Source of the DNA: a virus | DNA: 43,106 nucleotides | Reading direction: 5' to 3' (one strand) | IMG/VR virus record: IMGVR_UViG_3300032020_000020 | Coordinates: 1-43,106 of that record | Shown here: positions 2,287 to 41,262 of the stretch, piece by piece | How positions within the stretch are numbered: the first letter of the stretch is position 1 | How the letters are laid out: each line of letters opens with the position of its first letter | Notes under the pieces: model-generated | Database searches by the model: none | The model's input: only the letters and a program-made list of their open reading frames with translations | What the model was told of the DNA's origin: nothing | Translations under genes and position numbers: made by a program

Positions 2287-2586
2287 TCATTTTTCCTCTT
2301 TAACTTTTTCTACCATTTCTTTATGTCCTTTTAGAGCTTCTTTTTTTGTGTGATAACGATTTTGTTCTCCATCTAATGTTCCACCAAAAACCATAGTTTC
2401 AAAAAGTATCGGATTACTTTCTCCAAAAGAGTGGTCTAACCCTAAAAATACTGTTGAAATTTCACTTTTGCCGATTTTAGTTCTTGCAATTCTTCTATCT
2501 GCAATTTCAAACCACTTAGCCCAAGTCAACAAATTTTTTTCTTCTTTTGGATTTCCATTTTCATCTAACATATATTTCCCACTCAT
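2287..2586 (-). CDS. Conserved phage hypothetical protein (99 aa)
   Basis: The ATG at 2586 has GAAAGGAG upstream. The pattern MSGKYMLDENGNP, LLTWAKWFE.ADRRIART, STVFLGLDHSF, LFETMVFGG and ALKGH is one I recognise as a widespread phage and prophage hypothetical family, but I know no experimentally established function for it. Length is typical of the family. It sits in the leftward regulatory/replication operon. Confidence 0.8.
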   Translation of the reverse strand: MSGKYMLDENGNPKEEKNLLTWAKWFEIADRRIARTKIGKSEISTVFLGLDHSFGESNPILFETMVFGGTLDGEQNRYHTKKEALKGHKEMVEKVKEEK

Positions 2587-2609
2587 TTTTCTCTCCTTTC
2601 ATTTTTCCC

Positions 2610-2637
2610 TTGACAATCTTTTTAAAAAAGATTATCT
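2610..2637 (+). promoter_or_regulatory. Rightward sigma70-type promoter
   Basis: TTGACA (2610-2615), a 16-nt spacer and TTATCT (2632-2637) predict a start near 2644. It points right, against both neighbouring leftward genes, and is followed within about 60 nt by a strong rightward terminator. This implies a short independent RNA. Confidence 0.55.
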
Positions 2638-2643
2638 TGGGAT

Positions 2644-2702
2644 TGGTTTAAATCCGTTTCGCCACACGGCTCCCAGGTAAGCAATTACTTGGGAGCTTTT
2701 TT
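2644..2702 (+). ncRNA. Candidate phage small RNA (about 60 nt)
   Basis: The unit sits between the promoter at 2610-2637 and the terminator at 2669-2702. Three hairpins can be drawn: GGATT/AATCC at the 5' end, CCGT/ACGG in the middle, and the terminator stem. There is no ATG-led ORF of useful size. It lies in the gap between two leftward genes, so it is not antisense to a coding region over its length. Promoter, structure and terminator are visible; that it is transcribed is inferred. Confidence 0.5.
2669..2702 (+). terminator. Intrinsic terminator, rightward
   Basis: GCTCCCAGGTAA (2669-2680) pairs with TTACTTGGGAGC (2685-2696), one G-T wobble, with a GCAA loop and TTTTTT after it (2697-2702). 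On the opposite strand there is no T-run after the stem, so it acts rightward only. Confidence 0.8.
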
Positions 2703-2925
2703 ATCTTAACGCCGGAGCATTGTTGAGTCTTCTTTTCAGTGAATCCATCTCCTCTTTTATCTGCTCAATCTCATTCTGCATTGACATTACTAACTTTTCT
2801 AAGGAAGCCTGTTTCTTACCCACCAACTTACAAATCTCTACATTGTAGTCTAATGTTTCCCCCAAACATTTAAGAATGTCCTGCCTTAATTCTTCCGTTG
2901 TTTTAGGTCTTTTTGGTTCAGCCAT
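2701..2925 (-). CDS. Coiled-coil hypothetical protein (74 aa)
   Basis: The ATG at 2925 follows AAAGGAGGTGAAAACAGATGG-type spacing. After a Pro/Lys N-terminus, residues 12-70 form one long helix with heptad spacing (EKLVMSMQNEIEQIKEEMDS). It is probably a small oligomerisation or chaperone-like protein. Family not recognised. Confidence 0.65.
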   Translation of the reverse strand: MAEPKRPKTTEELRQDILKCLGETLDYNVEICKLVGKKQASLEKLVMSMQNEIEQIKEEMDSLKRRLNNAPALR

Positions 2926-2940
2926 CTGTTTTCACCTCCT

Positions 2941-3102
2941 TTAATGTGAGAAAATTATCCACGCCAACAGAAAAAATCCAATCCCGGATACTATTGCCCA
3001 TACCCACTTATCCCTTTTTGCCCGCCTTAATTCCATATTTAAAAAATTAACTTGGGGTCTCCATATACCATAGTCGATGGTATCTTCGATTTTATAGGTC
3101 AT
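2941..3102 (-). CDS. Small C-terminally anchored membrane protein (53 aa)
   Basis: I chose the ATG at 3102 because GAAAGGAGGTAAA precedes it. The longer in-frame version starts inside the upstream gene. Residues 1-34 are soluble and charged, followed by one membrane helix (WVWAIVSGIGFFLLAWIIF) at the extreme C-terminus. Such tail-anchored proteins in phage early operons may act in exclusion or membrane targeting. No specific function is visible. Confidence 0.6.
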   Translation of the reverse strand: MTYKIEDTIDYGIWRPQVNFLNMELRRAKRDKWVWAIVSGIGFFLLAWIIFSH

Positions 3103-3380
3103 TTTACCTCCTTTCTCTTCTTTTTGGAATATTCCCAAAGGTCTGGGACGGGTTTAAGTGAGATCGCCCCGCCTTGGAGCGTTTCTTCGCTGTGGACTGA
3201 CGAATTACCAGTTTCTGGGGGTTTATCTCTGCCTGATTTTGCTGATCCCATCCTAAAAGGGTAAAGACTGCATTTTGGGGCGGTGCAAAACTTGACTTCT
3301 TGTGGATTCCCACCAAAACATTCTACACATTGAGTTCTTATAGCTTTCCAAAGTAGTTTCTTAGAAATCCTAACGGTCAT
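3099..3380 (-). CDS. Zinc-finger phage protein (93 aa)
   Basis: The ATG at 3380 follows GAGGAGAGAATAAT. Residues 18-43 contain CVECFGG, FCTAPKC and SLYPFRMG, a four-cysteine cluster that recurs in many phage and prophage hypothetical proteins. The C-terminal half is polar and poorly conserved in look. It probably binds zinc and may bind DNA. It overlaps the neighbouring wHTH gene by 4 nt. Confidence 0.75.
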   Translation of the reverse strand: MTVRISKKLLWKAIRTQCVECFGGNPQEVKFCTAPKCSLYPFRMGSAKSGRDKPPETGNSSVHSEETLQGGAISLKPVPDLWEYSKKKRKEVK

Positions 3381-3727
3381 ATTATTCTCTCCTCAAATAA
3401 ACTTTCCTGCCTTACTCCCGATTTCAACCTTCGCCGGATCGCCTGCTCTACCTGATAGGTCTCAAACCAACGTTTATGAATACGCTCTGCATATTCTGCC
3501 CAATCCTCTGGCTCATCAGACCAGAAATAACCTTTTCCGTTCGCAAGTATCTGGATATATCCTAATTGGGTCCTGAGATAGTGGACAATTCGTCTTGTTG
3601 CCTGAGACCCCTGCAAGTCTAAAATCTTGGCAATCTCATCTCCAGAGATGGGGCAGGATTTGTCCCTCGACTTAATTAGGTCTAAAACTTTTTGGTTAAG
3701 GTTTTGCATTTCTCTTACTCGATTCAT
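3377..3727 (-). CDS. Winged-helix DNA-binding protein (116 aa)
   Basis: Residues 9-70 (LNQKVLDLIKSR, ISGDEIAKILDL, RRIVHYLRTQLGY) read as a winged helix-turn-helix with a wing ending in GKGYFWSD. Tryptophan- and arginine-rich helices follow. The start could be the ATG at 3727 or at 3709. It is the first gene after a structured region (3731-3802) and is a plausible regulator of this operon or a replication accessory. Similar small wHTH proteins occur in many phages. Confidence 0.7.
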   Translation of the reverse strand: MNRVREMQNLNQKVLDLIKSRDKSCPISGDEIAKILDLQGSQATRRIVHYLRTQLGYIQILANGKGYFWSDEPEDWAEYAERIHKRWFETYQVEQAIRRRLKSGVRQESLFEERII

Positions 3728-3895: not shown

Positions 3896-4099
3896 TTATA
3901 ATTTTAATACCTCTCCACCGAAAAATCTGGTTTTTGATTTCTCATTTTTTAGTGCCTCAAGTAGTTCATCACCCAGAGTAGCCGTATCCAATTTTTTAAA
4001 GATGGATTTAGCCAACTTATAACTATGACCATATTTGTAGGGTCTAACTAAAACGCCATACTTTTTACCTTCAAATTCTATATTAAAATGACCTTGCAT
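3896..4099 (-). CDS. Small hypothetical protein (67 aa)
   Basis: The ATG at 4099 follows AAGAGGTAAAAAACA. The product is basic and beta/alpha mixed (MQGHFNIEFEGKKYGVLV, then YKLAKSIFKKL). It is the first well-supported gene after the 4.16-kb hairpin. No recognised family. Confidence 0.6.
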   Translation of the reverse strand: MQGHFNIEFEGKKYGVLVRPYKYGHSYKLAKSIFKKLDTATLGDELLEALKNEKSKTRFFGGEVLKL

Positions 4100-4141
4100 T
4101 GTTTTTTACCTCTTAAATCTCCAATCATTCCCATTGCACCA

Positions 4142-4267
4142 TCATATAAAAATTAAGCGAGTGGGAACATCTCCCACTCGCTTTTTGTTCTTTAAAAAAC
4201 CGAAAAAATCTATAATATATATTATGTAAACTACTAAAACAGATTCCAAACCTAAGATTTTCTTCAT
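4142..4267 (-). CDS. Possible small membrane protein (41 aa)
   Basis: The ATG at 4267 lies 5 nt after the stop of the 90-aa gene, with GTAAAAG as a weak ribosome site. Residues 5-26 are a convincing membrane helix (LGLESVLVVYIIYIIDFFGF) followed by KNKKR. Its last codons run through the terminator stem, which argues against it. I give it low confidence. Confidence 0.35.
   Translation of the reverse strand: MKKILGLESVLVVYIIYIIDFFGFLKNKKRVGDVPTRLIFI
4156..4187. terminator. Bidirectional intrinsic terminator
   Basis: AGCGAGTGGGA (4156-4166) and TCCCACTCGCT (4172-4182) form a perfect 11-bp stem with a 5-nt loop. TTTTT follows on the right, and leftward the stem is followed by TAATTTTTAT. It would stop leftward transcription from the 4.75-kb promoter before the 4.1-kb genes unless read-through or antitermination occurs. 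Confidence 0.75.
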
Positions 4268-4274
4268 CTTTTAC

Positions 4275-4547
4275 CTAACGCTTTAATAACTCTTGCAAAA
4301 TTTTAGACTGTTTTCCAAGTTGTCCTTTAATCTCTTTAAGGATTTTAATAATTTTCTCCACTTCAAATTCCCTCCGAAGCCACCTAAAAAAAGATTGTGA
4401 GTCAACACCGACTCCAACTTCTTTGATAATCCCTTTTTGGATTGCTTCTTGTAATTCATTTACTTTGCGTCCCAGTGCTTCGGTTAAACCTTTTGCATAT
4501 CTAAAAGGAATTGTTTCCCCGAAGAAAGTCCAAAGAAGTCGAGTCAA
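4275..4547 (-). CDS. Hypothetical protein (90 aa), first gene after the 4.75-kb promoter
   Basis: The open frame has no ATG. The TTG at 4547 is preceded at good spacing by AGAAAGGA, so I start there. The N-terminus is hydrophobic/aromatic (TRLLWTFFGETIPF), and the rest is helical and basic, ending in a coiled helix (KILKEIKGQLGKQSKILQEL). It is separated from its promoter by a long structured leader. No family recognised; the start is uncertain. Confidence 0.45.
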   Translation of the reverse strand: MTRLLWTFFGETIPFRYAKGLTEALGRKVNELQEAIQKGIIKEVGVGVDSQSFFRWLRREFEVEKIIKILKEIKGQLGKQSKILQELLKR

Positions 4548-4722
4548 GGGGAATCCTTTCTGTATTAAAATAAATACCAAAGAAGAAACCGCAATAACGA
4601 GACAACGGGTTAATGAAGAACCCTTGACTTAAAATTATTGCGGTCTCTCTTTGGGTGATATTCGGAACTGATATGAGTTTCATTTTTGTTGCCTCGATTT
4701 TATTCGCCTTTTTTATTATCGG
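4548..4722 (-). promoter_or_regulatory. Long structured leader RNA of the leftward operon
   Basis: About 175 nt lie between the predicted start and the first good ribosome site. Within it TTATTGCGGT (4635-4644) pairs with ACCGCAATAA (4588-4597), and an inner GGGTT/AACCC hairpin (4607-4611 with 4619-4623) fits inside. GAGAC (4600-4604) can instead pair with GTCTC (4643-4647), giving an alternative fold. This suggests attenuation or regulated translation. Confidence 0.4.
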
Positions 4723-4729
4723 CAAACCT

Positions 4730-4757
4730 ATTATAATACTTAATCTTTTTTTGTCAA
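4730..4757 (-). promoter_or_regulatory. Leftward sigma70 promoter
   Basis: On the minus strand TTGACA (4757-4752), a 16-nt spacer and a perfect TATAAT (4735-4730). The -35 and following bases, TTGACAAAAAAAGATT, are identical to those of the rightward promoter at 13215, so the two may share a regulator. It is the best candidate for driving the second leftward operon. Confidence 0.7.
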
Positions 4758-4782
4758 GAGAAATCTTTCACTTTTTTAAAAA

Positions 4783-4800
4783 TAGGGTCAAGACCCTATA
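4783..4800. promoter_or_regulatory. Palindromic site upstream of the leftward promoter
   Basis: ATAGGGTC-AA-GACCCTAT is a perfect inverted repeat about 26 bp upstream of the -35 box of the promoter at 4757. The same GACCCT core recurs in the terminator at 4935-4956. It could be an activator/repressor site or a small hairpin. Confidence 0.4.
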
Positions 4801-4839
4801 CCGTAAATTTCAGATAAAAGTTATCTTTATGACCAAAAG

Positions 4840-4929
4840 ATGAAACTAAAACTATTTGAAGGTGAAATTGCGTTAGCCATAATTCTTGTTGTGCTCTACC
4901 TCATTTTAAAGATTGTGTTTGGATGGTAA
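4840..4929 (+). CDS. Possible 29-aa membrane peptide
   Basis: ATG at 4840, stop at 4929. The product is one membrane helix (ALAIILVVLYLILKIVFGW) after a short charged N-terminus. The ribosome site is poor and no rightward promoter is obvious. It is listed because the composition is so clearly membrane-like. The rest of 4760-5145 has no supported gene. Confidence 0.25.
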   Translation: MKLKLFEGEIALAIILVVLYLILKIVFGW

Positions 4930-4956
4930 AAAGAAGACCCTGCTATTGCAGGGTCT
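4928..4956 (-). terminator. Intrinsic terminator ending the leftward late operon
   Basis: AGACCCTGC (4935-4943), a TATT loop and GCAGGGTCT (4948-4956) form a 9-bp stem. Leftward it is followed by TCTTTTT (4934-4928). It lies downstream of the last late gene (5146) and before the next leftward promoter. Confidence 0.8.
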
Positions 4957-5048
4957 ATTTCGCCCAGATTAAAACCTGGGCTTTAGTCATTCCATTATCT
5001 AATACGCTACTTAAAAAACTTTTGATTGATAAATCCATTCTTTTTAAA

Positions 5049-5530: not shown

Positions 5531-6049
5531 TTACCACAAGCTAAAGGTGCAACCCAAAGAAGCAGTAAAAGTGTTTTGCTGTGCTTCTCCAAATTTCCAT
5601 ATTGTCGCTTGTGGTCTCAAATAAACGCCCTTAGCCACTTTTATTACAGCAGTTATCCCAGTATTTATTCCAATATCATCATTAAAAGATGTTCCTTCTT
5701 TTGTGGCAGAGTATCCCGCAGTTGTAATCAGTGCAAAATTAAATGGTGCACCGATTGGCTTTACCCAATAGTTAGTTACTGCTCCATAAAAATTACCAAT
5801 TACATCGGGGTTGTTATCTCCCTTAACGCTCCAATGGAAATAGTTAAATCCCAATGTAATTTTGTCGCCAATCTTTTTATCCCCAGATACATAGAATCCG
5901 AAATCTGGATCAAACTGATGGGACTCGTTTATGGCTGGGAAAACAATGTAGGGTGAGATTGTTAGAAAAATCTCACTTGTATCTGTCTGGGCTTTTGCCA
6001 GAGGGCAAAAAAGAATTAACATCACAAGAAAAATTAAAACTTTTTTCAT
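5531..6049 (-). CDS. Outer-membrane beta-barrel protein with signal peptide (172 aa)
   Basis: GGAGGTGATAAA precedes the ATG at 6049. An upstream in-frame ATG at 6067 would place that ribosome site inside the gene. Residues 1-20 (MKKVLIFLVMLILFCPLAKA) form a signal peptide cleaved before QTD. The mature part alternates short amphipathic strands and turns, and ends in the aromatic C-terminus SLGCTFSLW, the typical signature for insertion by the BAM machinery. About 150 mature residues fit an 8-stranded barrel. It lies within the lysis cassette. Phage barrels of this kind can block superinfection or change envelope permeability; the role here is inferred. Confidence 0.75.
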   Translation of the reverse strand: MKKVLIFLVMLILFCPLAKAQTDTSEIFLTISPYIVFPAINESHQFDPDFGFYVSGDKKIGDKITLGFNYFHWSVKGDNNPDVIGNFYGAVTNYWVKPIGAPFNFALITTAGYSATKEGTSFNDDIGINTGITAVIKVAKGVYLRPQATIWKFGEAQQNTFTASLGCTFSLW

Positions 6050-35377: not shown

Positions 35378-35406
35378 TTGACAAAGGTTTAAAGGTTTAT
35401 TATATT
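35378..35406 (+). promoter_or_regulatory. Rightward early promoter
   Basis: TTGACA (35378-35383), 17-nt spacer, TATATT (35401-35406). The spacer contains a tandem AAGGTTTA repeat that probably binds a regulator. The first early gene starts 34 nt downstream. Confidence 0.8.
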
Positions 35407-35439: not shown

Positions 35440-35715
35440 ATGAATAAAACTAAAGAATTAAAACTTTTTCTTGAGGATTTGTATGTTAATAGATTTCACT
35501 TATCAAAGCCAAGAATAACAATGGTCAAAGACGGAGTCTATATCCATACGGGAGAAAATTTTAAAGAAACCCATAGAGAAATGAAATTATTTGTAAGCAT
35601 TTATGATTTTGAACAGTCAAGAGAGTTAACCGTTCAGTATTTAGAAAATTGCGATGATAGGATTATACATATTCTCGAAGAGATGATAAAAGAGAGAGGA
35701 AGTGAAAAGAGATGA
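35440..35715 (+). CDS. First early gene, hypothetical (91 aa)
   Basis: I chose the ATG at 35440 because AGAGAGGAGACG lies just upstream. An earlier in-frame ATG at 35353 lies before the promoter. The product has a helical N-terminus (MNKTKELKLFLEDLYVNRFH), a beta hairpin (ITMVKDGVYIHTG) and a helical end. Position as first early gene suggests a host-takeover or regulatory role. Family not recognised. Confidence 0.65.
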   Translation: MNKTKELKLFLEDLYVNRFHLSKPRITMVKDGVYIHTGENFKETHREMKLFVSIYDFEQSRELTVQYLENCDDRIIHILEEMIKERGSEKR

Positions 35716-35942
35716 AAATATACAGTTGCACACAAGCCAAGATAGGACAGGAAGGAATAGCCCACTGGACAAATTCCTATAATCTCTATAAGGCGAAAGC
35801 TAAAATTGTCAAGATCAATTTGGCTACGATCCGGGTAGAATTATTGGAAACTATCAATGGCTATCCCGAAGGAAAAATTTTAGTGATTCCCTTAGGATTT
35901 AATCAATGCTATTCCGAGAATAACTGTTTTGAAACCATTTAA
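35712..35942 (+). CDS. Small beta-rich early protein (76 aa)
   Basis: The ATG at 35712 overlaps the previous stop by 4 nt with GGAAGTGAAAAG upstream. The chain looks like a small beta barrel (YKAKAKIVKINLATIRVELL, then GKILVIPLGF). Unknown function; coupled to the first early gene. Confidence 0.65.
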   Translation: MKIYSCTQAKIGQEGIAHWTNSYNLYKAKAKIVKINLATIRVELLETINGYPEGKILVIPLGFNQCYSENNCFETI

Positions 35943-35968
35943 GTTGACGAAGTGCGGAGGGATTAAAA

Positions 35969-36010
35969 ATGAAAGCTAAGGCCCTAACCCTTCAGCCAAA
36001 GGATCGCTGA
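35969..36010 (+). CDS. Possible leader peptide upstream of the amidoligase (13 aa)
   Basis: GCGGAGGGATTAAAA precedes an ATG encoding MKAKALTLQPKDR. Its end overlaps TTCAGC (35991-35996), which can pair with GCTGAA (36006-36011). TCAGCC can alternatively pair with GGCTGA just before GAGGAGG. This is the geometry of translation-coupled attenuation. Inference only. Confidence 0.4.
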   Translation: MKAKALTLQPKDR

Positions 36011-36062
36011 AAGCTGGCTGAGGAGGAAACCGAAAACCCTAACAAAGAAAGGAGCGACTAAA

Positions 36063-36809
36063 ATGAAGACTACATTTGGTATTGAGCTGGAGTTTTCATT
36101 GGTTCACAATCAAACATATTTAGGCCTTGAGCGGTGGACTAAAGAAAACTTTGGGGAACGGTGGGAATTAGGTAATGATGGGTCGGTAAATGGTATTGGT
36201 TCGGAGTTAAGGACTATAGGCGGTCTTGATTTATCAACAATCTTAAAAGACTATAAGCAAATCTCCAAAAAGCTTTTAGGTCTATATAAAGAGGATAAAC
36301 TTTATGTAGATTCGACTGCTGGATTTCATATTCATATTGGTATAGATGGCTGGACTCTTGGTGAACTCAAAAAGTTTCATACTGCCTTTGTCTCATCTTT
36401 ACAATTTTGGTTCGACTTTCAGCCAAGCAGTCGGAGAAATAATAGGAATTGCCATTCCTCAATTTCAAGTGAGGTATTTCAAGAGATTTCCTCAACCGAC
36501 CATTATAAAGCCATCAATATAGGCGATTCCCTTTCACAAAACGGAACTATAGAATTAAGGGTATTCGCTGGAACGGTGCAATACTGGAAGGTCTTTAATA
36601 CTTTACAGTTGGTAAATCAGTATATCAAAGAAATACAAAAGATTAAAACTTTTACCGAAATTGAGAATGGCGACAACACACCGATTAGGATCATCAAAAA
36701 CAAAAAGCTAAAAACCTTTTATTTGAAGAGGGTAAAGGAACTTAACCCAAGCCGGTATATCGACCTGAAAAGCAAATACAAAAAAGAGGTGGCGGAATGT
36801 GCGGAATAA
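36063..36809 (+). CDS. Glutamine-synthetase-like amidoligase (248 aa)
   Basis: The ATG at 36063 follows AAAGGAGCGACTAA. Diagnostic residues of the GS-like amidoligase family (Amidoligase_2) are visible: GIELEF with Glu8 and Glu10, SELR at 47-50, HIHIG at 89-93, and IELRVFAGT at 163-171. These coordinate Mg-ATP in a GS-like barrel and drive amide or peptide bond formation between a carboxylate and an amine. The adjacent class II glutamine amidotransferase, overlapping by 13 nt, would supply ammonia from glutamine. The acceptor (a phage or host protein, peptide or small molecule) is unknown. Confidence 0.85.
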   Translation: MKTTFGIELEFSLVHNQTYLGLERWTKENFGERWELGNDGSVNGIGSELRTIGGLDLSTILKDYKQISKKLLGLYKEDKLYVDSTAGFHIHIGIDGWTLGELKKFHTAFVSSLQFWFDFQPSSRRNNRNCHSSISSEVFQEISSTDHYKAINIGDSLSQNGTIELRVFAGTVQYWKVFNTLQLVNQYIKEIQKIKTFTEIENGDNTPIRIIKNKKLKTFYLKRVKELNPSRYIDLKSKYKKEVAECAE

Positions 36810-37462
36810 TCGGAGCAACGGGCAAAAAGCCTGATGTAAAGCTTTTGTCTAAATTAGTTTCTCTTAATCTGGATCGAGGCGGACAGGACGGAGTTGGTAT
36901 CTGGAGCAACCGTCAAGGATTAAGAAAAGGTTTGAACATAACTTTAGATAAAGAACTTGCCAAAAGGAAAAAGGATAAAAACTTTTTAATCCATCTGCGT
37001 TGGGCAACATCTGGAGAAGTTTCTGCAAGGTTCTGTCATCCTTTTAGGTATAAAGATATAGTTTTTTGCCATAATGGTCATATCTGGAATTATAAAGATT
37101 GGAATTTGCCTATGGACTCTTTGGCTGGGCTCTTGTTTGTAGTTAGGAACTTGCAGGGAATTGAGAAACTTTGGGGCTCGTATGTGTTTGCTTGGTATAA
37201 TCTGGACGACTTAACCTTCAATATTCTAAATCATAACGGAGAAATTCAGTTTGGGTGGGAAAATAAAACTCTATATTTTGCTTCTGAAGGAATCAATATG
37301 GTTATAGAAAAAGCTTATGGCTGTCCTAATAATACCAAATTGACCTTCAATTCGGAAACAGGAGGATTGGTTGGGGTGCAAAACTTAGAAAAGTTACTCC
37401 AAAAACAAGCTAAAATGTGGAGTAATCTTTCTAAAACTTTGGAGGATATAAGCTATGTTTAA
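36797..37462 (+). CDS. Class II glutamine amidotransferase (221 aa)
   Basis: The ATG at 36797 lies inside the amidoligase end, giving MCGIIG with Cys2 as the N-terminal nucleophile after Met removal. Ntn-hydrolase signature residues are in place: RGGQDGVG (27-34), HLRWATSG (66-73) and HNGHIWN (92-98). It hydrolyses glutamine and passes ammonia to a partner. With no synthase domain attached, the neighbouring amidoligase is the obvious partner. Such stand-alone enzymes occur in some phages next to amidoligases. Confidence 0.9.
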   Translation: MCGIIGATGKKPDVKLLSKLVSLNLDRGGQDGVGIWSNRQGLRKGLNITLDKELAKRKKDKNFLIHLRWATSGEVSARFCHPFRYKDIVFCHNGHIWNYKDWNLPMDSLAGLLFVVRNLQGIEKLWGSYVFAWYNLDDLTFNILNHNGEIQFGWENKTLYFASEGINMVIEKAYGCPNNTKLTFNSETGGLVGVQNLEKLLQKQAKMWSNLSKTLEDISYV

Positions 37463-37631
37463 ATGTGAAAAATGTGGGAATGAGAGTGTAAATTATCAAA
37501 AACATAAGATAATTATAAAGACTCCCATTGGGAAAAGTCAAAAACTTTTATGTCCGAAATGTTTTATGATAGTTGATATGGTAATAAGAAAAGAGTTTAA
37601 TCAAAAGAAAGGAGGAAAACCTAATGCATAA
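37455..37631 (+). CDS. Small zinc-ribbon protein (58 aa)
   Basis: The ATG at 37455 overlaps the amidotransferase end by 8 nt. The product has CEKCG at the N-terminus and CPKC near residue 33, a two-knuckle zinc ribbon, with a basic tail. It may bind nucleic acid or regulate transcription. Exact role unknown. Confidence 0.65.
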   Translation: MFKCEKCGNESVNYQKHKIIIKTPIGKSQKLLCPKCFMIVDMVIRKEFNQKKGGKPNA

Positions 37632-37797
37632 CTGTAAAGTTAAACTTAAAAAATGGAGGCTCGATAAAGAATTGGGAAAACATCGGTTCTTTAGATGTAA
37701 AAAGTGTGGAGCAGAATGGATTGCAATTCCACTACCTGGCTCTACAGAATCCATTCTTTACTGCAATGGTAATATGATTTGCTTAAAAACCCCTTAA
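37624..37797 (+). CDS. Second small zinc-ribbon-like protein (57 aa)
   Basis: The ATG at 37624 overlaps the previous gene by 8 nt and follows AAAGGAGGAAAACCTA. Cysteines occur as NCK, RCKKCGAEW and a later YCNG..MIC, giving a zinc-binding core in a basic background. Unknown function. Confidence 0.65.
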   Translation: MHNCKVKLKKWRLDKELGKHRFFRCKKCGAEWIAIPLPGSTESILYCNGNMICLKTP

Positions 37798-37830
37798 CCC
37801 CCCGCCTTGTGCGGAGAAAGGAGCGTTTAA

Positions 37831-38013
37831 ATGCCCATAAAAGAGCGTAACTTACAAGGTAAAATCAATCTTGAGGTAGACGAAAAGACTTTTACCGAGT
37901 TTCACGAAGAGAGAAAATATCGGAAGACAACTTTAAAACAGCTTTTTCTGGATGCTTGGGAAAGCTACAAAAAGGAAATCGGGGGGCTGGAGCAAAGAAA
38001 GGAGAAGAAATGA
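37831..38013 (+). CDS. Ribbon-helix-helix-like regulator candidate (60 aa)
   Basis: The ATG at 37831 follows GAAAGGAGCG. Residues 9-45 (GKINLEVDEKTFTEFHEE, then KTTLKQLFLDAWESYKKE) read as a beta strand plus two helices, the layout of MetJ/Arc repressors. It may bind one of the palindromes in the control region. Motif-level inference. Confidence 0.65.
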   Translation: MPIKERNLQGKINLEVDEKTFTEFHEERKYRKTTLKQLFLDAWESYKKEIGGLEQRKEKK

Positions 38014-38216
38014 GAATTTACATTGAAGATTTTGTAAAGTCTCTACAACAACAACATTCAATCACTGAATTGGGCTCAGACAAAACAATAACTTTTGAGA
38101 CCGACAGCGGAAACAAATTTCGGATTAGCTTTGAGGGTAATATGCTGTATGTAAATTTCTCAGATGGCAGATTATCCATTTACCCCGTATCTTCTAACGC
38201 TATTTATTTAGAGTAA
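38010..38216 (+). CDS. Small acidic early protein (68 aa)
   Basis: I chose the ATG at 38010, which follows AAAGGAGAAG; an upstream in-frame start lies inside the preceding gene. The product has a helix then a small beta sheet (SDKTITFETDSGNKFRISFE). No family recognised. Confidence 0.65.
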   Translation: MRIYIEDFVKSLQQQHSITELGSDKTITFETDSGNKFRISFEGNMLYVNFSDGRLSIYPVSSNAIYLE

Positions 38217-38233
38217 AGAAAGGAGAAGGAGAA

Positions 38234-38410
38234 ATGAAAAAGATAGAGTTTATCTGTGATGCTTGCAAAAAGATAATAATTTCATCAGAACCTGTTGAAA
38301 CTTTAATAAGTGTCATTATCGAATTTCCAGCAGAGAACCCAGTAACTTATCATCTTTGCGATTCTTGTATGAAGAGATTTAAAAGCATAATAGCCCGAAC
38401 TTTTATATAG
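38234..38410 (+). CDS. Third small zinc-ribbon protein of the early operon (58 aa)
   Basis: The ATG at 38234 follows AAAGGAGAAGGAGAA. CDACKK near residue 8 and CDSCMKR near residue 44 form a zinc ribbon. It is the last rightward gene; its stop overlaps the end of the opposing leftward gene by 8 nt. Function unknown. Confidence 0.65.
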   Translation: MKKIEFICDACKKIIISSEPVETLISVIIEFPAENPVTYHLCDSCMKRFKSIIARTFI

Positions 38411-38639: not shown

Positions 38640-38887
38640 CCCACCGGTAGGAGATAAACCCTATTGTATTTTTCCTCGAATCTTTCAGCCCTATTTTTTT
38701 TATACCTTCGATGTTGCCCTGCTAAAATTTCTTTCTTATTTTTTTGATAGTAGTCTTTGGCTTTTTGTCTATGAACCTCACCGCTACAAGACGTGCAATA
38801 ATTTTGCTTGCCCGATTTTGGCTCAAGGGGACGCTTACACTTTTTGCATTTCGGTTTAGATTTTTTCATTCTTAAATCTTTAAACAT
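38627..38887 (-). CDS. Basic zinc-knuckle protein (86 aa)
   Basis: Starts are possible at 38887 or at the internal ATG 38869 (MKKSKPKCKKC). It contains CKKC and CTSC knuckles followed by a lysine/arginine-rich helix (KDYYQKNKKEILAGQHRRYKK-like), resembling small HNH-associated or recombination accessory proteins. I see no complete catalytic HNH. It directly follows the methylase. Confidence 0.6.
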   Translation of the reverse strand: MFKDLRMKKSKPKCKKCKRPLEPKSGKQNYCTSCSGEVHRQKAKDYYQKNKKEILAGQHRRYKKNRAERFEEKYNRVYLLPVGWKG

Positions 38888-41262
38888 TCTTGAGCTAATC
38901 TCCGCTCCTCCAAAGTCAAAGTTTCCATCATATCAATCTGATTGCTCTTTTGAACTTTGACAATCCTGTTTTTAGCCATTTCGCAATACTCTGGTTTTAT
39001 GTCTATGATGATAAAATGCCGTCCCAACTTTTTGGCTACGACTCCCACAGTGCCAGATCCGCCGAAAGGGTCAAGGCAAATCCCACTATCCCAGCCGTCT
39101 TTATGGTCGCAACCACAATCGGTGTAGCCAGTAAATTCTTTACTGTTCAGATATTCCTCACCGTGTTCTCTACTTGCCTGTCTCAATAAAGCCAATCTTC
39201 CTGCCGTTGATTTTTGAATATCATAATTGGTTCTGGTCTTACCAGTATGTGAAGTAAATCCTGCTTTAAATATCTTTTCCCTTGCCTTTCCACACTTTTT
39301 ACAAATAAACTCCGGGCATCCCGCCTTTATCGGCGTTTCGCACAGTTTCTCCGGGAAGGTGGCGAAGTGTGCCTCCTTGAAGGCTTGAGTGCTAATCTTC
39401 CAGACCGAGCCTGCTTTGTTATCCATTAAAGTTTTAGCCACATCATAGACCTCTGCCTGCCAATCCAGATAATCCTCTTTGCTCATTATTGAAACACAAC
39501 GCTTGTTGCGACCCTGAGGATTATAAGTCCTTTTTTGTGGAGACCAAACCGTTCCACATTTTATTGATCGATTACCTTCTTTACTGGAAAATTTATTATG
39601 TTCCGAATACTGTCCATAATTTTGGCTAATAAATTCCGGATGATTATGTGCTTCAAACTGTTGCTCAAACCAAACATCGTGTCCAGACCAGAAATTATGC
39701 TTTATCTGTCCCGTGCCTTTACATCTTTTGCATTCCCCAATTTTATTTCGGTGATACCTTGCTCTTGGGCTACCCATACTCTCAGCCATAGATTCTTCAA
39801 TCTTGGTTTCTCTTACTTCTTCAATTTTACCTGTCCCTTTACAGTTGGGGCATTCCCGCCACTCCCAATCTTGCCCCCCAATCCCCTTTGTGCCTAAAGG
39901 TGCTTTGGATGTTAGCTCCAAAGTCTTTTCATTCGTCCAGTATTGAGTTTTGCTATTCTTTGTGAAAAAATAAAGATATTCAAAGTCCACCGTGAACCTA
40001 TCTCCTGCCGATGAGGGCATAGGGTTAGGCTTGAACCAAATCAAAGTGTTCCTTCTGATCCACCCCCTTTTCTGCATCTCCAAAACAAACATTTCGGGAA
40101 TGCCAATGAGGGATTTGGGTTGAGTAGATTCACTCAAATTTGGCTGAAATCTTGGTTGACTACCCCTTACCTGTTTAGTTCCATCAACTTGATAAGAGCG
40201 ATTTGCAGAGTAACCATCTCCGATATTCACCCAGCAACTCCCCGTCTTTTTTAAAACTCTTTTAATCTCATCGAAAATTCCGCAGAGATGAGAAATGTAA
40301 AGTTCGGGCGTAGGCTCTAAACCTAAAGACCCTTTCCACGCGGAACAGAGGGAACAGAAATTAGAAGTATGTCCAAATCTTATTGAAATCCCATTGTCTT
40401 GTTCGCTACGGTTTGCACCCACATTCGGAGGATTTTCTGGTCGTGTCCTTCCACCTTTTGCTGGTTGTTTATGTTCGACCCACCTATGCTCACATTTTTT
40501 GACTTGTAATCTATCTCCGCAAGTAGGACATCTTAATTTATCACAAATTGTTTGTTGCAAAAAGGACAAATCACTTGACCTTTGTGAGTTCTGTTCAGTG
40601 CTAATTGAAGATTTTCTGGACGATTGTCGTTTCTTATTCCGTTTATATGATGAACAAACTCGGTTTTCTTTAAATATCTGCCTATCATCTTCTCCATTAC
40701 TAATCGATGTTCCATTATATATCCCTTTACATTGTTCGGATGATTTTTCGCCAATATCATTTTGTATCCGTGTATTCTTTTGATTCCCCCCTTCCAGTTT
40801 GTATTGCAACTTCCTGTGCTGTATTTTGAATTCGGAGGTTTGATTCTCCCCTCCATACAGGCTATCTTGACACTGTGGCTTTTGCAACATCCCTTGCCTT
40901 GCCGTATTCTTGATTTGTCTTTGTATTTCCGTTTTTTGCTGTGTCTTCTTGGTTTGTAATAAGGATTCACCGTCTTGCCGCATATTTTGCATAGCCAAGT
41001 TGTCTGTGAGTGTATTTTTTGAGCTTCCATTTTGTTCAACTCCTTTAATGGTATAAGTGTTTCTGTCTATTCTAAATATACCATTACAGGTGGCACAAGT
41101 CAAGAGAATATCCCCATCCCAAATCTGTGGCTCTATTGAATAATCACGTAACCCAAAATAAGGAGGGCTGGTAAGGATGCAGTCAACCGACTCATCGGGC
41201 AAGTCTTTTAAAACTGCCCAAACGTCACCGCAAATAACTTTGTCTTTGAAATCCTCAATCAT
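38872..41262 (-). CDS. DNA methyltransferase, beta-class, interrupted by a nested HNH gene (796 aa)
   Basis: The ATG at 41262 overlaps the previous stop. The catalytic motif TSPPY is at 31-35, and the AdoMet-binding DPFGGSGT near residue 740 is followed by GRHFIIIDI, the beta-class order (N6-adenine or N4-cytosine). Zinc motifs include CATC/CPTC and two CxxCKGTG. Residues about 78-243 are a Gln/Ser/Lys/Asn-rich low-complexity stretch that is the out-of-frame shadow of the HNH gene at 40533-41030. Without it the two halves join in a conventional phage methylase. Methylation may protect phage DNA. Confidence 0.85.
40533..41030 (-). CDS. HNH endonuclease nested out of frame in the methylase gene (165 aa)
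   Basis: The ATG at 41030 is preceded by AAAGGAGTTGAACAAA, a strong ribosome site that also encodes methylase residues. The HNH core EHRLVME (107-113) and [15 protein letters not shown] (127-141) are intact, with zinc knuckles CKIC (14-17) and CPFC (155-158). Such proteins are homing nucleases that mobilise themselves. It lies wholly inside the methylase gene in a different frame, with no in-frame stop in the methylase frame. Clear motifs and start give high confidence. Confidence 0.88.

Follow-up and report, generated by a model that had tools for sequence, protein, structure and literature searches.

The 43,106-nt stretch of viral DNA analyzed here (the window; IMG/VR record IMGVR_UViG_3300032020_000020) carried an overlapping gene pair, an amidoligase followed by a class II glutamine amidotransferase, that is real and, judged by its motifs and structure models, catalytically intact-looking. 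This type of pair is already known from other phages, and the copy in the window is a stripped-down, very divergent example. Glutamine-fed amide synthesis is very probably the joint activity of the two proteins, as predicted from their sequences and models. The whole explanation that we favor, a glutamine-dependent amide synthetase that would act on stem peptides of host peptidoglycan, is on balance probable; peptidoglycan as the acceptor, taken by itself and argued by analogy, is a tentative choice.

The amidoligase frame (248 aa) began behind a good Shine-Dalgarno sequence (AAAGGAGCGACTAAA-ATG). A first-pass annotation had described two overlapping genes with full catalytic motifs; both open reading frames were recovered, and those motifs, for the amidoligase GIELEF (E8, E10), HIHIG (H89/H91) and ELRVFAGT (E164, R166), were all present on inspection of the sequence. 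In a profile search the protein scored 34.1 bits against PF12224 (Amidoligase_2; curated cut-off 22), and in PHROGs it matched phrog_2443, 'amidoligase enzyme' (4e-12). Relatives at ~15-24% identity kept residues G6, E8, E10, W34, D39, S41 and H89, as well as N152, E164, R166, G170 and T171. An AlphaFold model built on an alignment of divergent viral relatives (pLDDT 67.6, pTM 0.70) matched YbdK (1r8g, 4e-6), glutamine synthetases and Dop in Foldseek, and structure comparison also returned viral amidoligases; a sequence-profile search of PDB chains with the same protein gave no match. Its score, modeled fold, GxExE strand and HxH and ExR motifs identify it as a predicted amidoligase of PF12224. 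The concern that a model might lack the glutamine synthetase-like residues was not borne out, as the modeled protein matched the YbdK/glutamine synthetase fold and its acidic, His and Arg residues were conserved.

The amidotransferase frame (221 aa) also had a good Shine-Dalgarno start (AAGAGGTGGCGGA-ATG) and contained MCG, RGGQDGVG, HLRWATSG and HNGHIWN by inspection. It scored 35.5 bits against PF13522 (GATase_6; curated cut-off 27) and matched phrog_4736 in PHROGs (2e-12). Cys2, directly after the initiator Met, is the predicted nucleophile; C2, H66, R68, H92-N93-G94 and D107 were invariant among 12 divergent sequences and were also kept in an alignment with cultured-phage relatives (alignment A2). 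The loop after Arg27 reads RGGQDG, one residue longer than the RGQDG of the cultured-phage relatives, and the RGG form was seen also at two other loci (L033 and L092). The AlphaFold model, again aligned with divergent viral relatives (pLDDT 64.2, pTM 0.65), matched the glutaminase domain of GlmS (1xff, 2e-6), AsnB, PurF and EgtC. Score, the Cys2, HxR, HNG and Asp residues and the modeled Ntn-hydrolase fold point to a predicted class II amidotransferase. Both single-chain models were of moderate confidence and came from shallow alignments. On the two enzyme identities proposed in the first-pass annotation, PF12224, PF13522, PHROGs and the structure models agreed.

Enzymes of these families hydrolyze glutamine to release ammonia and, in the case of ligases with the glutamine synthetase (GS) fold, activate a carboxylate with ATP. 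As a two-protein glutamine-dependent amide synthetase, the pair would work by hydrolysis of glutamine at Cys2 of the amidotransferase, with the ammonia passing to the GS-fold amidoligase, which would use ATP to form an activated carboxylate, probably an acyl phosphate of the kind formed by glutamine synthetase and YbdK-type ligases; ammonia would then displace the phosphate to give a primary amide. Glutamine-fed amide formation on some acceptor, as the annotation had it, is the best reading of a GS-like fold, retained catalytic residues and a recurrent pairing.

Both genes lay on the plus strand and overlapped by 13 nt, which suggests that their translation is coupled. They sat in a short plus-strand group (~35440-38410) with minus-strand genes to either side, and the best-matching promoter-like site in this region lay just 5' of the group (Table 1); such sites were only mildly enriched in the AT-rich stretch, with 19 seen against 11.4 expected. 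The earlier description of a 'phage early operon' is plausible: a short plus-strand group behind a promoter-like site was confirmed, and its early timing is something we infer. Rfam and tRNA searches across the whole window were empty. With the leader region folding barely more stably than shuffled sequence (z -1.26), these results gave no support to an RNA leader element upstream of the pair.

Table 1. Coordinates of the gene pair, its surroundings and other features discussed in the text (window positions unless a locus is named)
Feature	Position	Strand	Remarks
172-aa protein	5531-6049	-	apparent signal peptide; barrel-like beta pattern
Promoter-like site TTGACA-17-TATATT	35378-35406	+	11/12 match; putative, upstream of plus-strand group
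First gene of plus-strand group	35440-35715	+	~91 aa from ATG 35440; GGAG box
76-aa ORF	35712-35942	+	without family match
Possible 13-codon ORF MKAKALTLQPKDR	35969-36010	+	strong Shine-Dalgarno; directly 5' of amidoligase
Amidoligase gene	36063-36809	+	248 aa; GS-fold (predicted); PF12224 Amidoligase_2
Amidotransferase ribosome binding site AGAGGTGG	36783-36799	+	within 3' end of amidoligase gene
Class II glutamine amidotransferase gene	36797-37462	+	221 aa; glutaminase domain only; PF13522 GATase_6
CxxC zinc-ribbon-like ORF	37455-37631	+	downstream in plus-strand group
Second CxxC zinc-ribbon-like ORF	37624-37797	+	downstream in plus-strand group
60-aa ORF	37831-38013	+	downstream in plus-strand group
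DUF7239-like ORF	38010-38216	+	downstream in plus-strand group
Cys-rich ORF	38234-38410	+	downstream in plus-strand group
N6/N4 DNA methyltransferase ORF	38872-41262	-	796 aa; PF01555, TSPPY motif
HNH_3 endonuclease gene	40533-41039	-	168 aa; E 1e-10; inside methyltransferase ORF, other frame
~180-210-aa cassette protein	L003 4316-4855
~180-210-aa cassette protein	L095 3990-4538
~180-210-aa cassette protein	L097 7089-7643
~180-210-aa cassette protein	L098 7429-8022
~180-210-aa cassette protein	L005 3675-4247
~180-210-aa cassette protein	L096 2951-3577

A survey of IMG/VR with one motif, G..IE[LF]R.F.GT, yielded 82 amidoligase loci (L006-L087) spanning 709 kb. Every one of the 82 motif matches lay in a long open frame, the GxExE N-terminal strand was present in nearly all full-length ones, and those survey proteins put to Pfam scored as PF12224. 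A class II amidotransferase was found in 30 loci and in all 30 directly adjoined the amidoligase on the same strand, 3' of it in 27 and 5' in three. In another 39 loci the amidoligase was followed on its own strand by a gamma-glutamyl cyclotransferase. No locus had both partners, which co-occurred only in large podovirus cassettes, and 13, mostly short sequence stretches, had neither. These raw counts are inflated by near-copies, and a tree of 34 amidoligases is the fairer measure; on it the amidotransferase label needs at least three changes, so the pairing was gained or lost repeatedly and was not inherited as one block, and the amidotransferase-linked amidoligases comprised at least three lineages. 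The window amidoligase formed a long orphan branch on the same tree, and its identity to the other rows nowhere exceeded 23%. Where the amidoligase gene came first, the amidotransferase gene followed at +11 nt in MW202697, -1 nt in MW202615, 25 nt in L033, 0 nt in L040 and 77 nt in L092, and after 12-82 nt in the soil-type contigs that made up the largest amidotransferase group. Conservation of the pair as a unit, on which the annotation had staked its reading, was thus seen among distant loci, adjacent in 30 of 82 and in several unrelated lineages; close relatives were not found. Two arrangements stood apart: one viral contig had three amidoligase-family ORFs in tandem (L064 7578-9907, +), and in L090 an amidotransferase had an amidoligase on either side, all on one strand (431-1702, 2360-3712 and 3898-5016, all -). 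An apparent phage match, CAKLQH020000008.1 ('Acinetobacter phage MD-2021a'), was rejected as host chromosomal GlmS by its neighbors; with rib, glmU, glmS and murI in succession, all ordinary chromosomal genes, the record looks like bacterial chromosome.

It is very improbable that the two proteins work separately, the one as a free-standing glutaminase and the other as an unrelated ligase, and are neighbors by chance. The 52 of 82 loci without an amidotransferase beside the amidoligase, and likewise Porphyromonas phage L002, mean that the ligase in general does not need one; against chance stand the 13-nt overlap in the window and the survey, in which an amidotransferase, where present in the 82 loci (709 kb), always adjoined the amidoligase on the same strand, across at least three lineages. 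The cyclotransferase loci bear on a further alternative, auxiliary nitrogen metabolism, in which the pair would make or recycle a small amide or glutamyl metabolite for the nitrogen supply of phage or host. Gamma-glutamyl cyclotransferase, the partner in those 39 related loci, is an enzyme of small gamma-glutamyl compounds, and a study of a deep-sea planctomycete phage suggested a nitrogen role for its genes encoding an amidoligase, an amidotransferase, a glutathione synthase and a cyclotransferase, although the gene link is speculative there (PMC10945688). Glutamine hydrolysis and ATP use would, however, be a cost in nitrogen donor and energy, and neither another nitrogen gene nor a cyclotransferase was found in the window record, which leaves a nitrogen role improbable.

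If the pair does act as a glutamine-dependent amide synthetase, its acceptor might instead be a protein or a ribosomally made peptide, amidated to hijack or protect it; candidates on the host side include RNA polymerase or a translation factor, and on the phage side a capsid protein or a small peptide, for instance the product of the 13-codon ORF immediately upstream of the amidoligase, which itself is possibly a leader peptide, an acceptor peptide or a chance frame. The strong Shine-Dalgarno sequence of that ORF is consistent with such an acceptor, as are the GS-fold enzymes Dop and PafA, which act on protein tags, Dop being among the structure matches of the amidoligase. Iyer et al. (2009; cited in PMC7824862) are also said, by their title, to have proposed amidoligases as modifiers of peptides and proteins. 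Conserved small neighbors, which the first-pass annotation had suggested as possible acceptors, were not seen beside other amidotransferase-linked loci: compared by eye, the soil-group neighbors resembled none of those of the window pair. This argues against a protein or peptide acceptor, which we regard as somewhat unlikely.

The record behind the window is linear and incomplete, its left end interrupts a gene, and Pfam scans of its ORFs found no DNA polymerase in the 43 kb. Four phages (Arthrobacter phage Jasmine, Microbacterium phage Shocker and two Manatee Spring phages) had terminases 25-32% identical to that of the window, the window capsid protein matched SU10_MCP and the portal protein matched a phrog 'head-tail adaptor' family; the source phage is a divergent podovirus. 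Both pair genes were absent from all four terminase relatives, so the pair looks accessory in this phage lineage, and we picture it as an accessory module that would be co-translated from a small plus-strand operon. Viral-contig scans seeded with the amidoligase, amidotransferase and terminase peptides of the window found no relative, nor did a genome-contig scan seeded with the amidoligase peptide; MW202615 and MW202697 proteins as scan seeds and a plasmid DNA search gave no match either. The 172-aa protein near the left end (MKKVLIFLVMLILFCPLAKAQTDTSEIFLTISPYIVFP...), without Pfam match, is possibly a phage-encoded outer-membrane protein and hints at a Gram-negative host. Neither pair protein matched a defense family in PADLOC, and membership of an anti-phage defense system was rejected.

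On the minus strand near the pair, the methyltransferase ORF enclosed the HNH_3 endonuclease gene on the same strand. The methyltransferase frame stayed open across that gene as low-complexity shadow sequence with little family match (~residues 55-314), and we read this as an HNH gene inserted with the host frame left unbroken. A phage DNA methyltransferase this close to the pair is compatible with a carboxylated base in phage DNA as the acceptor of the same chemistry, a hypermodification that would act against restriction. The phage amide ligase CmoY acts on 5-carboxymethylcytosine in DNA, and one cluster of its relatives bears a glutamine-hydrolyzing domain (PMC12783734). CmoY, however, is an asparagine-synthetase-type, AMP-forming ligase and not GS-fold, the window methyltransferase is N6/N4-type and not C5-type, no CmoA-like carboxy-SAM synthase occurred among the scanned window ORFs, and no N6/N4 carboxymethyltransferase candidates were found in the CmoY study (PMC12783734). 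With only an N6/N4-type methyltransferase and a different ligase fold, the window was not assigned to the CmoA/CmoX/CmoY DNA hypermodification systems, and a DNA acceptor is highly unlikely.

Glutamine-fed amidation of peptidoglycan stems is known from cells, where MurT/GatD acts on D-Glu and AsnB/LtsA on diaminopimelate. Because these enzymes amidate such carboxylates, a peptidoglycan stem carboxylate, either the D-Glu alpha- or the diaminopimelate epsilon-carboxylate, is in our view the most likely acceptor of the amide synthetase, and an amidated stem peptide might make the cell more or less sensitive to lytic enzymes or superinfecting phages. The annotation had held that phage substrates were open. 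This stands insofar as the accessible text of the cited phage amidoligase literature contains no experimental demonstration of a substrate, but published suggestions exist: one paper takes amidoligase/amidotransferase genes of podoviruses for a 'peptidoglycan modification cassette' that would serve to block superinfection (PMC5498523), and another proposes superinfection prevention for such phage genes (PMC10580990). Against a peptidoglycan-amidating synthetase count the other proposed peptidoglycan-cassette genes, not found in the 43-kb window, the moderate confidence of the shallow-alignment models and the orphan position of the amidoligase in the tree. Since this linear record is incomplete and no DNA polymerase was found in it, the missing cassette genes may lie outside the window. 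Alternatively, and in our judgment rather unlikely, the stand-alone pair could be a distinct, repeatedly assembled two-gene system whose substrate is separate from those of the large cassettes and the cyclotransferase pairs, with an acceptor new for phages, e.g., a host translation or transcription protein.

The prediction of amidoligase cassettes in phages dates from 2009 and is traced in the literature to Iyer et al.; such cassettes have since been widely annotated. The proteins of the window pair, at 221 and 248 aa, are among the smallest directly testable units of such systems, and the pattern of partners, amidotransferase or cyclotransferase, predicts ammonia as the nucleophile in one class and gamma-glutamyl chemistry in the other.

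Amidoligase and amidotransferase genes have been reported in LUZ24-like phages (PMC3890496, PMC3517423) and in OM43 phages (PMC10580990). With the peptidoglycan cassettes of the LUZ24, PA11, phiEco32, RIO1 and CW02 types (L003, L004, L005 and L095-L098), the window had in common an Amidoligase_2 gene plus a class II amidotransferase gene. The large cassettes of named phages comprised a class II amidotransferase, a COOH-NH2 ligase, a ~180-aa conserved protein, Amidoligase_2 and an ATP-grasp protein, often with an added cyclotransferase or class I amidotransferase. In contrast, profiles built from 4-7 phages each found no window match for the COOH-NH2 ligase, ATP-grasp, ~180-aa protein or cyclotransferase, and Pfam scans of window ORFs found no COOH-NH2 ligase, ATP-grasp, cyclotransferase or class I amidotransferase. 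Large-cassette amidotransferases were 390-677 aa long compared to 221 aa in the window, and the window amidoligase fell outside the large-cassette clade (97/95 support), a long-branch placement that is itself uncertain. In six larger cassettes a ~180-210-aa protein, unnamed in annotations, lay between the COOH-NH2 ligase and the amidoligase and is a candidate acceptor or scaffold (Table 1). The MW202697 and MW202615 cassettes had the two genes adjacent in the order of the window, overlapping in MW202615, and OM43 phages MEP401 and MEP402 and their relatives resemble the window in having PF12224 and PF13522 in one phage. The amidoligase shared its predicted fold and N-terminal GxExE strand with the YbdK/carboxylate-amine ligase family and glutamine synthetase, but it was shorter than YbdK-type ligases and far below the family cut-off (TIGR02050, residues 4-19 only, E 0.015, 14.6 bits versus 176.4). 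Prophages and Arthrobacter cluster AL phages (PMC11318856, PMC5513430; L008 and others) carried the amidoligase family in a two-gene setting, whereas their partner was a PF06094 gamma-glutamyl cyclotransferase in place of the amidotransferase. The soil-type IMG/VR group (L006, L012, L013, L015, L022, L027 and others) came from high-GC phages unrelated to the window, with ParB-like and DNA-ligase-like neighbors, and their amidoligases were 17-19% identical to that of the window, with HITVG in place of HIHIG; they nonetheless shared its ..RVFAGT motif, and their amidotransferases, like that of the window, were standalone proteins of similar length (~200-215 aa), with no other cassette gene found beside them.
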